Source of the DNA: a virus
DNA: 33,434 nt
IMG/VR virus record: IMGVR_UViG_3300048914_000221
Location: 1-33,434 of that record
Reading direction: 5' to 3' (one strand)
Both the position numbers and the translations under genes were made by a program. Shown here one piece after another: positions 14,515-20,576 of this stretch (its first letter is position 1; each line of letters begins with the position of its first letter). The notes beneath the pieces were generated by a model. That model was given only the letters and a program-made list of their open reading frames with translations, was not told the DNA's origin and searched no databases.

Positions 14515-14598
14515 GTGGACGATGATCCCCCTCCGCCGTTCTGGTTGTCGCCGCGCCCGTTCCTCGAACCCGACTGGCCGGACGACGACGAAGACTGA
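14515..14598 (+). CDS. Tiny acidic proline-rich protein (27 residues)
   Basis: GTG 14515 follows GAGGAG at 14502-14507, itself overlapping the upstream stop. The product is 27 residues, with a DDDPPPPFWLSP start and a WPDDDED end. A strong hairpin begins four bases after its stop. A good ribosome binding site, tight spacing and a highly biased composition argue that it is translated. The function is unknown; similar proline-aromatic-acidic peptides occur at the end of late operons in related phages, by my recollection. Confidence 0.55.
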   Translation: MDDDPPPPFWLSPRPFLEPDWPDDDED

Positions 14599-14602
14599 CG
14601 AC

Positions 14603-14639
14603 GCCCCCGCTCTGCTGCCAACTGGCAGCGGGCGGGGGC
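14603..14639. terminator. Strong bidirectional terminator closing the late operon
   Basis: GCCCCCGC at 14603-14610 pairs with GCGGGGGC at 14632-14639. An inner CTGCTGCC/GGCAGCGG-type stem closes on a short loop. It lies between the last late gene (+) and a leftward gene ending at 14651, so it can end transcription from both sides. As usual in GC-rich phages there is no long T-run. Confidence 0.8.
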
Positions 14640-14650
14640 GCTTCGCCGTG

Positions 14651-14938
14651 TCAGAACGGGGCGTCGCCGTTGCCGACGATGTTGTAGAAGAAGGGGGAGC
14701 CGGGGGTGCGAGGACTGTCGTTCGTCTGCGTGCGGATGAATGCGCCCTCAGTGCCGTCCGGCAGCCGCAGCCGGTAGCCGTCAGCCTTGTTCTTCAGGTC
14801 ACCCCAGTGCTCCCCAGGGATCGTGAGTCTGCCGAACCAGGACTCCAGCCTGTCCTGCCGACTGCGCAGGTCTGCTCCGACGGTGAACTCTGCACCCTCG
14901 TCCGTGATCAGGACGGCGGGCCCTTGGTAGATCGCCAT
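14651..14938 (-). CDS. Hypothetical protein, conserved type in actinophages
   Basis: A 95-residue protein on the minus strand with ATG at 14938. It begins MAIYQGPAVLITDEGAEF and ends IVGNGDAPF, with a central RLRLPDGTEGAFI strand. I recognise this pattern (small beta protein, N-terminal YxGPA, C-terminal GNGxAPF) from Streptomyces genomes, but no function is known to me. No ribosome binding site precedes the ATG. A TAGCGT hexamer ends six bases before it, so a leaderless message is likely. It is divergent from the serine recombinase gene across a 156-base gap. Confidence 0.75.
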   Translation of the reverse strand: MAIYQGPAVLITDEGAEFTVGADLRSRQDRLESWFGRLTIPGEHWGDLKNKADGYRLRLPDGTEGAFIRTQTNDSPRTPGSPFFYNIVGNGDAPF

Positions 14939-14944
14939 GACTGG

Positions 14945-14950
14945 ACGCTA
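14945..14950 (-). promoter_or_regulatory. Candidate -10 for a leaderless transcript
   Basis: On the minus strand TAGCGT is followed by six bases and then ATG at 14938. This places transcription start on or next to the start codon. No Shine-Dalgarno motif is present. A TTGACA occurs further upstream but is spaced too closely to be a normal -35 for this hexamer. Confidence 0.4.
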
Positions 14951-14983
14951 TCCACCGTGTCAAATTCTCGGCGTCCGCAAACG

Positions 14984-15003
14984 ACCGTCTGTCGACAGAC
15001 GGT
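14984..15003. promoter_or_regulatory. Perfect 20-bp palindrome between divergent genes
   Basis: The half-site ACCGTCTGTC is followed directly by its exact reverse complement. With one unpaired base the symmetry extends to an outer ACG/CGT. It lies in the control region shared by the leftward 14938 gene and the serine recombinase. It could be the recombinase operator, a crossover or accessory site, or the site of another dimeric regulator. Confidence 0.75.
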
Positions 15004-15082
15004 ACGTCAACTCCGTTACTGCAGGACGAGAGTGACGAAAACCCGTGTCCTCAACTATGACGCACAAAGGGATAGCAATCGC

Positions 15083-15088
15083 TACACT
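15083..15088 (+). promoter_or_regulatory. Candidate -10 for leaderless recombinase transcript
   Basis: TACACT ends six bases before ATG 15095 and there is no ribosome binding site in between. This spacing predicts transcription starting at the ATG. It mirrors the arrangement of the divergent gene at 14938. Confidence 0.4.
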
Positions 15089-15094
15089 TACGGT

Positions 15095-15670
15095 ATGAGG
15101 ATCGGATACGGCCGGGTCTCCACCCGCGACCAGAACCCAGACGCACAGAAGGACGCCCTCGCTGCCGCAGACTGCGACCACGTGTTCGTCGACAAGGCAT
15201 CCGGCAAGCTCGCCTCCCGCCCCGAACTCGACAAGGCGCTCATCGCCGCACGCGAGGGCGACGAGTTCGTCGTCACTAAGCTCGACCGGCTCGGCCGCTC
15301 CCTGAAGAACCTCATCGAGCTGTCCGAGCAGCTCCAGGAGAAGGGCGTCAGCCTCGTCGTGCTCGATCAGAAGATCGACACCAGTACGCCGGCTGGCCGG
15401 ATGTTCTTCCACATCCTCGGCGCCATCGCCGAGTTCGAGCGCGCACTCACCGTGGAACGCACCCACGACGGACTGGCTGCCGCTCGCGCCCGCGGCCGGG
15501 TCGGCGGCAGGAAGCAGGCCCTCAAGCCCCGCCAAGTCCAGCTCGCGCAGGAGATGTACGACGAGCTCGGCGACGACGGCAAGCGCAAGCACACCGTGCA
15601 GGGCATCGCCGACGAACTCGGCGTCGCCCGCACCACCATCTACCGATACCTCGAGAGGGAGGAGAAGTGA
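15095..15670 (+). CDS. Serine recombinase (resolvase/invertase family)
   Basis: A 191-residue protein of normal resolvase size. The N-terminal catalytic domain has YGRVST with nucleophile Ser9 and Arg7, and the KLDRLGRS motif with Arg65 and Arg68. The long helix follows (AEFERALTVERTHDGL, about 112-127), then GRVGGR and a C-terminal helix-turn-helix (HTVQGIADELGVARTTIYRYL, about 166-186, described by its ends). It would cut and rejoin DNA through a 5' phosphoserine link, for dimer resolution or inversion. ATG 15095 was chosen because the upstream open frame has no start signals. This is a second recombinase beside the tyrosine integrase at 19197-20576. Confidence 0.93.
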   Translation: MRIGYGRVSTRDQNPDAQKDALAAADCDHVFVDKASGKLASRPELDKALIAAREGDEFVVTKLDRLGRSLKNLIELSEQLQEKGVSLVVLDQKIDTSTPAGRMFFHILGAIAEFERALTVERTHDGLAAARARGRVGGRKQALKPRQVQLAQEMYDELGDDGKRKHTVQGIADELGVARTTIYRYLEREEK

Positions 15671-18980: not shown

Positions 18981-18998
18981 TGGGGGGAATCTGGGGAG
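18981..18998 (+). repeat. 18-bp direct repeat, left arm of attP
   Basis: TGGGGGGAATCTGGGGAG occurs here and again, identical, at 19223-19240. The two copies flank the rnpB-like core at similar distances. This is the arrangement of arm-type sites bound by the N-terminal domain of tyrosine integrases. Confidence 0.7.
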
Positions 18999-19038
18999 TA
19001 GAGACGCTCGGGGGGTGCCCGGGGAGAGCCAGTTCTTA

Positions 19039-19078
19039 AACTCAAAGGCACCCCCGGGTACTCGCGGGAACTCAAAGG
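19039..19078 (+). repeat. Two 10-bp direct repeats in the left attP arm
   Basis: AACTCAAAGG occurs at 19039-19048 and 19069-19078, 30 bases apart (about three helical turns). These may be further integrase or excisionase binding sites. Confidence 0.5.
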
Positions 19079-19112
19079 AAGTCCAGGTCAGAGGGACTCC
19101 AGAGCTGAAAGC

Positions 19113-19168
19113 CCAGGCCGCGAGGCGACCGGGCGACAGAACCCGGCGTACAGCCCGACTCGTCTGCC
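19113..19168 (+). other. attP core: 3'-end fragment of the host RNase P RNA gene (rnpB)
   Basis: The + strand reads through the highly conserved end of bacterial RNase P RNA: GACAGAACCCGG, then GTACAGCCCGACTCGTCTGCC-type sequence, preceded by CGCGAGG and CGACCGGGC segments that pair in that RNA. Only the last 50-odd bases of the gene are present and no 5' part is nearby, so it is not a working gene. A phage that integrates into the 3' end of rnpB must carry this fragment to restore the host RNA. The integrase gene starts 29 bases further right on the opposite strand. The identity is from memory of actinobacterial rnpB. Confidence 0.82.
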
Positions 19169-19175
19169 ACCTAAT

Positions 19176-19189
19176 CCGCTGACCAGCGG
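19176..19189. other. Short perfect hairpin next to the attP core
   Basis: CCGCTG and CAGCGG with two bases between lie between the rnpB fragment and the integrase stop. It could end rnpB transcription in the lysogen or be part of the integrase core site. Confidence 0.35.
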
Positions 19190-19196
19190 AAAGACC

Positions 19197-20576
19197 TCAG
19201 ATCACTTGATCCAAAGTGACACTGGGGGGAATCTGGGGAGAATCGGAAGCAAAAGAGATCGCGGGAAGCTCCTGGGGGGAAACACCACCCCCGGCCTGGC
19301 CCATCCATGAGCCCAGCGCAGCCAGCGCCCGCTTCCCGGACTTCGGCATGAAGTGCACGTAAGTCCTCAGCGTGAACGCCGGATCCGAGTGACCGAGCCA
19401 CGCAGCCAGCTGAGTGATTGTCTCACCCGCAGCCAGCACCACGCTAGCGAACGTATGCCGCAGCACGTGGAAGCCGTCCTCCCGCGGCATCTTCCAGCTC
19501 ACCCGCCGCCACGGCTTCTTCCCCGCGCCCTGCACGTACTCGACCTCCGGTGCAGGGATGACGCCGGCGCGGGCCAGCGCGGGCTTCCACTGTTTGTCGT
19601 CGAAGGTGACCCGGTTGACCGCTCCGCCGCTCACACCGTTCGTTCTCGGAGTGGTCACAAGGAGACGTACTGTCCGCAAGGGCCGCTTCTCCCACTCCAG
19701 GCTGGGGCGGTCCGGGTCGACCCACGGCAGCGTGACCTCGACGGTCGGGAAGACGTTGGCGTACTCCTTGACGGCCCGCGCCAACTCTGGCGGGCAGGGC
19801 GCCGTCCGCAGCTTGTTGCCCTTCGGAGGGGCGAACGCGAGACGGCTGTTGATCCGCACGATCTGCCGCGTCACATTGATCTCGTCACCGGCGATGTCAT
19901 CGGGCGAGAACCCGAGGCACTCTCCCTGCCGCATGCCCGAGCCGGCGGAGAGGTCCACGAGGATTGCATAGCGGGCATCCAGCGCGCTCCGGACCGCGGC
20001 CACGGTCTCCCTCGGCCAGGCCTTCGCCTTGGACGGCGGCGACGCGGGCGGCGACAGATCCTCGTCCCGGAAGGGATTCTCCGGGATCCGCTTCGCCTTG
20101 TGCGCCGCCTGCATGATCGACGAGAAGTGCCGCCACGTCGTGCGCACCGTGTTCACGTCGATGTCCTGCTCGACCCGGGTCAACCACGCCTTGATCTCGT
20201 CCGGACCGATCCGGTTCAGGGGCAGGGCGCCGGCGTGCGGCAGGATGTGCAGGAAGACGCGCGGCTTCATCGACTGCTTGGTGCCGGGCGGCTTGCGCAG
20301 GTTGGGCCACCAGGTCTTCTCGACGTACTCCCGCAGCGTCATGTCGCCGTTGCGTGGGTCGTAGAACTGGCCGCGGCTCGTGTCCGTCTGGGCTTTCGCC
20401 AGCCACTCCTCGGCGCTCCCGGGGCCCTTCTGGTTCTTAAAGGAGCGGTCCCGCACGCCGGGGATACCAGCGACCCGCCAGCGCTTGCCCGTTCCCCAGC
20501 GTTCGGTCCGGCGCCGCTTCCCCGTCGTCGGATCAGGCTTCTTCGTCAGCCAGCGATCCTCGATGTAACCGGCCAC
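19197..20576 (-). CDS. int: Tyrosine integrase
   Basis: A 459-residue site-specific recombinase. GTG 20576 has a GAGGGGGT site upstream. Residues 1-60 are a basic arm-binding region (Lys/Arg-rich), about 75-165 the core-binding helical domain, and 185-415 the catalytic domain. Catalytic residues are Arg216 (SGMRQGECLG), a Lys near 252-255, His370-x-x-Arg373 (HVLRHTF), His396 (WLGHSD) and Tyr406 (TLRTYVHF). It would join attP to the host rnpB 3' end through a 3' phosphotyrosine link. Its last codons contain one 18-bp arm repeat. It is downstream of, and may be cotranscribed with, the 20598-21041 gene. Confidence 0.97.
   Translation of the reverse strand: MAGYIEDRWLTKKPDPTTGKRRRTERWGTGKRWRVAGIPGVRDRSFKNQKGPGSAEEWLAKAQTDTSRGQFYDPRNGDMTLREYVEKTWWPNLRKPPGTKQSMKPRVFLHILPHAGALPLNRIGPDEIKAWLTRVEQDIDVNTVRTTWRHFSSIMQAAHKAKRIPENPFRDEDLSPPASPPSKAKAWPRETVAAVRSALDARYAILVDLSAGSGMRQGECLGFSPDDIAGDEINVTRQIVRINSRLAFAPPKGNKLRTAPCPPELARAVKEYANVFPTVEVTLPWVDPDRPSLEWEKRPLRTVRLLVTTPRTNGVSGGAVNRVTFDDKQWKPALARAGVIPAPEVEYVQGAGKKPWRRVSWKMPREDGFHVLRHTFASVVLAAGETITQLAAWLGHSDPAFTLRTYVHFMPKSGKRALAALGSWMGQAGGGVSPQELPAISFASDSPQIPPSVTLDQVI
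19223..19240 (+). repeat. 18-bp direct repeat, right arm of attP, inside the integrase 3' end
   Basis: Identical to 18981-18998. On the opposite strand it encodes the integrase residues around SPQIPPS, so the sequence serves both as coding DNA and probably as an arm site. Confidence 0.7.

Follow-up and report, generated by a model that had tools for sequence, protein, structure and literature searches.

The 3' end of the RNase P RNA gene rnpB as the probable attachment site of a temperate Streptomyces phage

Williams is said to have described, in 2002, prophages lying in the tmRNA gene ssrA. In actinomycetes, prophages and AICEs integrate at the 3' ends of tRNA genes (PMC3218068; PMC10654092 for Mycobacterium), and tRNA and tmRNA genes are the RNA targets given in surveys (PMC10654092, PMC3218068). 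The TIGER/Islander survey of genomic islands, which maps integrative elements precisely, mostly tyrosine-integrase ones, places 33.8% of the sites in tRNA/tmRNA genes, 43.4% in coding and 22.8% in intergenic sequence, and rnpB, the gene for RNase P RNA, is not a named site class (PMC12424338). Elements in rnpB may be counted there as intergenic. In the literature searched, the coverage of which is incomplete so that a prior description is possible, we found no report of rnpB as attB. Here we analysed a virus record of 33,434 bases (hereafter the window), in which a short rnpB fragment most likely represents the attP of a temperate Streptomyces phage, with a tyrosine integrase that would use the rnpB 3' end as attB, a reading to which we assign a probability of about 95%. 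As in the tRNA-end prophages and AICEs, a tyrosine integrase gene adjoins attP, and a structural RNA gene offers its 3' end as attB and is restored by the copy of that end which the element carries. Unlike those elements, the target is a ribozyme gene of ~400 nt whose two ends are joined by helix P1, so that one helix would be built from two genomes. The ssrA prophages likewise take a non-tRNA structural RNA gene as attB and restore its 3' end, the RNA gene being a different one. Gene-restoring integration at a structural RNA 3' end is a known mode, and the ribozyme gene as target is what appears to differ.

The rnpB fragment ends 28 bp from the integrase stop at 19197 (Table 1), and its last part reads GACAGAACCCGGCGTACAGCCCGACTCGTCTGCC (19135–19168, + strand). 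To delimit it, the exact match was extended against 47 complete host rnpB copies. A base-by-base comparison revealed 52 nt (19117–19168) identical to the complete rnpB ends of five Streptomyces genomes, and one further Streptomyces genome gave an exact rnpB-end match of 53 nt (maximal, 19117–19169). The block most commonly shared by the window and the other hosts spans 33 nt (19136–19168), and the core common to most relatives and hosts is only ~30–33 bp. The Rfam model RF00010 (RNaseP_bact_a) matches 19121–19166 (24 bits; E = 2.9e-5 when 1.4 kb was searched); its gathering score of 100 bits is out of reach for a short fragment. In that match, 19121–19131 were aligned to the model start, as if the phage also carried the 5' strand of P1; we rejected this candidate, as these bases equal the host sequence directly upstream of the core. 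The earlier note had proposed an rnpB 3'-end fragment beside the integrase stop with no other part of the gene present, and had named an uninterrupted match of about 40 bases or more as support. The 52-nt identity and the RF00010 match bear out the fragment, and a search of the whole record found only this piece of rnpB. Neither tRNA nor tmRNA genes were found in the 33,434 bases.

Table 1. Features at and around the putative attP in the window
Feature	Position	Strand	Basis or remark
Left arm-type repeat TGGGGGGAATCTGGGGAG	18981..18998	+	probable integrase arm site
Imperfect direct repeats in left arm	19039-19057 and 19069-19087	+	may be additional protein-binding sites
rnpB 3'-end fragment, maximal exact identity	19117..19168	+	host rnpB extension; RF00010 match
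Putative attP core ACAGAACCCGGCGTACAGCCCGACTCGTCTGCC	19136..19168	+	shared by almost all relatives and hosts
3' strand of rnpB helix P1	19153..19168 (16 bases)	+	covaries with 5' strand in 47/47 rnpB copies
Small hairpin TCCGCT-GACC-AGCGGA after core	19175..19190	+	
Tyrosine integrase gene, 459 aa, GTG start	19197..20576	-	convergent with rnpB fragment
Right arm-type repeat, identical to left	19223..19240	+	within integrase coding region (C-terminal SPQI)

The fragment has phage tail genes on its left and the integrase gene and more genes of phage type on its right; it thus appears to be an attP inside phage sequence. IMG/VR virus contigs are often prophages, and a related metagenomic contig (L005, integrase 82% identical) does terminate in host rnpB (34.7 bits, truncated where the contig stops). 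Given phage genes on both sides, however, and an rnpB match of only 52 nt, it is very unlikely that the window is a prophage end (attL or attR) with the fragment as part of a host gene.

The integrase contains a Phage_integrase domain (PF00589, E 3.3e-10) with the conserved H-x-x-R, LGH and Tyr of tyrosine recombinases, and a central domain (PF22022, E 8.6e-6). His370, Arg373, Gly395, His396 and Tyr406 are invariant across 12 aligned relatives. Integrase relatives that adjoin the same fragment are 58%–100% identical, and twenty distinct virus contigs, with integrases 66%–100% identical, carry the same core 7–101 bp from the integrase stop. Of the cultured-phage tyrosine integrases that align over most of their length, that of Streptomyces phage mu1/6 (DQ372923) is one of the most similar, at only 27% identity over 82%. 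A search of cultured phages and plasmids gave no att-type match to the rnpB fragment in the collection of cultured phages. Two candidates, MT836823 (L219) and MT835553 (L220), were rejected because each contains a whole rnpB and resembles bacterial DNA deposited as phage; both are labelled Bacteriophage sp. from human faeces, and MT836823 reads like a bacterial chromosome. Separately, the window encodes a serine recombinase after the tail genes (14522–15670, + strand; Resolvase PF00239, DNA invertase PHROG), which could be a tail-fibre switch.

The stretch singled out by the earlier note, 18981–19240, is bounded by the outer edges of two identical 18-bp repeats. Of 23 relatives, 21 have the right-hand AATCTGGGG, with up to one mismatch, beginning exactly 93 bp downstream of the first base of CAGAACCC. 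The left-hand AATCTGGGG, perfect or with one mismatch, is less constant: 12 of the 23 have it, 146–168 bp to the left of the core. It cannot be expected in lysogens, where host DNA occupies that side. The integrase stop falls 7–41 bp past the core in most relatives, and the right repeat is thus coding, usually as an SPQI motif with the isoleucine codon ATT, a codon rare elsewhere in these integrase genes (28/380). In four relatives (L010, L052, L054 and L087) the stop lies 74–92 bp past the core and the repeat is outside the coding region. The spacing of +93 is kept whether the repeat is inside or outside the integrase reading frame, and such constancy with a floating frame points to a constraint at the DNA level. 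By analogy with the lambda-type attP organisation, the repeats are putative arm-type integrase sites, flanking the core at constrained distances as in a bipartite lambda-type attP.

Many relatives bring a hairpin after the core, which is weak in the window and stronger in several relatives (strong in L006, L008, L029, L030, L054 and L059), in some followed by T-runs. After the core of the window, no terminator-like match with a T-run was found. A phage-supplied terminator as a general rule was not retained, being only partly supported, with weak hairpins in the window and several close relatives. We also observed an inverted pair, CAGGTCAG left of the core (~19085–19092) and CTGACC(T/A)G right of it (~19180–19186), which recurs in many relatives and in the sequence after host rnpB genes.

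Alternatively, the fragment might be host DNA captured for its RNA, as a decoy or regulator of RNase P, with integration at rnpB secondary. A small RNA could be read from the fragment, which folds somewhat better than shuffled sequence (z = -2.15), but the window has no more of the gene than the P1 3' strand and neighbouring bases, relatives show no sequence conservation to the left of the core, and the arm spacing fits an attP. We therefore regard an RNA function of this kind as highly improbable beside an attP.

Six Streptomyces loci came up when bacterial genomes were searched with the integrase profile, and the proposal in the earlier note that lysogens would carry this integrase beside rnpB holds for the relatives. 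Complete rnpB is followed by the core and a relative's integrase gene in S. litmocidini (L029), Streptomyces sp. adm13 (L030) and Streptomyces sp. ISL-11 (L034), and S. wuyuanensis (L031) has the core with the upstream bases masked as N. The full rnpB genes adjoining relative integrases in chromosomes score 287–298 bits with RF00010, and the attL copies in L059, L071, L072, L073 and L142 score 278–298 bits over model positions 1–367, a full-length class A fold. A pattern search found a second copy of the rnpB end in adm13 (same contig, 6.5 kb apart) and in S. wuyuanensis (56 kb). Complete rnpB at one end and a 3' fragment at the other are seen in G001, G002, G089, G171, G235, G271, G376 and others, and the attR fragments of G001, G002 and G003 differ in their left and right flanks. 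The unoccupied site is represented by G279, in which the single, complete rnpB (289 bits) is followed by a gene 89% identical to the one after attR in lysogen G003; likewise, the attR flank of G379, whose two copies are 5.2 kb apart, is 80.7% identical over 321 bp to the flank of rnpB in G173, both comparisons being between species. The glycosyltransferase gene after attR in G001 and G002 was rejected as an empty-site marker, because it lies away from rnpB where both positions are listed. attL, attR and the unoccupied site were thus seen in relatives and other elements; no lysogen of exactly the window's phage was found in the genomes searched, the nearest chromosomal relative being G003 (S. 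wuyuanensis), with an integrase 78% identical and the adjoining rnpB masked as N. A chance or convergent resemblance to rnpB, with the real attP elsewhere, would accord with an Rfam score far under the gathering score, but it is opposed by 52 contiguous identical bases, by a placement conserved in many phages and by relatives' lysogens whose attL and attR are joined at this sequence; we consider it the least probable alternative, with almost no weight. As a separate observation, the element between the two rnpB cores of G002 (L030:4867-11402) is 6.5 kb long, too small for a full tailed phage, and core copies 5–6 kb apart also occur in G271 and G379; these 5–6.5-kb elements are possibly satellites or remnants.

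Of 393 Streptomyces species genomes, sampled evenly, 298 contain an exact 31-nt rnpB-end pattern, and 17 of these hold two or more copies, a count that misses diverged fragments since the pattern is exact. In the majority of these 17 genomes, a complete rnpB coexists with a fragment that has unrelated sequence to its left. Related elements appear to occupy the same rnpB site in several percent of Streptomyces genomes. Extra copies lie far from rnpB in G071, G184, G198 and G217, and hence not every extra copy need be a simple prophage end. In G184 and G071 (L149, L163, L164), rnpB 3' fragments are megabases from the complete gene, two of them 50 kb apart. G173 carries two complete, inverted rnpB copies 3.3 kb apart (C29:642655 and 645990), either a duplication or an assembly artefact.

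From the fragment, the paired repeats, attL, attR, the unoccupied site and the P1 type match described below, each read directly from sequence, we propose a putative model for integration at rnpB. The integrase would bind the two arms (18981–18998 and 19223–19240) and the core starting at 19136, and exchange strands with the same sequence in host rnpB, the crossover presumably falling at some point within the shared block. At attL, the host rnpB body would be joined to the phage 3' end, yielding a complete gene tail-to-tail with the integrase gene; at attR, the displaced host 3' end would lie at the far end of the prophage. The ribozyme of the lysogen would be a hybrid, with the body and the P1 5' strand from the host and the P1 3' strand from the phage, and it probably functions normally. 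Since such a P1 pairs a host 5' strand with a phage 3' strand, the P1 types must be compatible.

Three P1 strand pairings, GGCAGACGAGCCGGGC with CCCG...TCTG, GGCGGACGAGCCGGCC with GCCG...TCCG and GGCAGACGAGCCGGCC with GCCG...TCTG, account for the 47 rnpB copies without exception. The phages carry the same three types (C/T in the window, G/T in L012 and L018, G/C in L087), and the P1 3' strand of the window would pair with the host-encoded 5' strand in a lysogen. Its predicted duplex energy is -30.2 kcal/mol with the matching host type, against -24.2 and -24.9 kcal/mol with the other two. Overall, matching types are predicted at about -30 kcal/mol and five of the six mixed ones at -21 to -26; the sixth, with wobble pairs, reaches -29.5 kcal/mol. 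We tabulated by hand both ends of 14 lysogens (G001, G002, G003, G078, G089, G143, G151, G171, G189, G235, G254, G271, G376 and G379), and in all of them the two ends share the same C or G type (nine C, five G), an agreement with a probability of 1/2002 under random pairing with those totals. That the match of phage and host type reflects compatibility is suggestive only, as the elements are related and lineages may simply co-occur. In G115 and G151, the displaced host end is the copy on the integrase side. Its P1 strand carries a substitution, and another copy remains intact, as would follow if the displaced end had become dispensable. It is conceivable, though on balance doubtful, that P1 compatibility filters integration, that phage P1 types evolve to match their hosts, and that repeated rounds of integration and excision swap P1 strands and the hairpins downstream of them between the two, making rnpB an actively exchanged, prophage-modulated gene in Streptomyces.

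A quick, midpoint-rooted tree of 70 integrases, with several long branches, places rnpB-type integrases at the base and through most of a 44-member clade (support 99). In a subgroup or sister clade, the 3' end carried is that of a protein-coding gene, assigned to rhamnogalacturonan lyase family 11 (PF21348, E 2.8e-227); the gene fragment lies downstream of the integrase in L019, L021–L024 and L027, and in L083 and L084 it adjoins the long host gene. The start of the lyase fragment (CAGAACACCGCCTACAA) agrees with the rnpB core (CAGAACCCGGCGTACAG) in 13 of 17 positions, a match reached by 79 of 20,000 shuffles of the lyase fragment. Both groups have their left arm at about -157, and the right arm shifts from +93 to about +185. 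Our reading is that the integrase target may have changed by way of a similar core; tentatively, with this quick midpoint-rooted tree as its basis, rnpB would be the ancestral target. A second rnpB-using clade (L088, L089, L091–L095) has the integrase gene on the opposite side of the core, reading toward it. On present sequences, at least two integrase clades use rnpB, which recurs as a target in Streptomyces. The integrases of L096–L106, ~46% identical to that of the window, adjoin the 3' end of another gene, presumably a murA homologue, recognised by eye with L104 translated. More distant members stand at other gene ends.

In summary, the structural RNA genes that serve as phage attachment sites form a short list, to which an essential ribozyme gene would be added, and recurrence in Streptomyces makes the rnpB site no curiosity. 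Prophage searches that rely on tRNA and tmRNA genes would miss elements at rnpB. The hybrid P1 helix offers a direct test of whether RNA structure limits phage integration sites. Furthermore, rnpB and protein-gene targets with a recognisable common core make this integrase family useful for studying shifts in integrase specificity and for making Streptomyces integration vectors.
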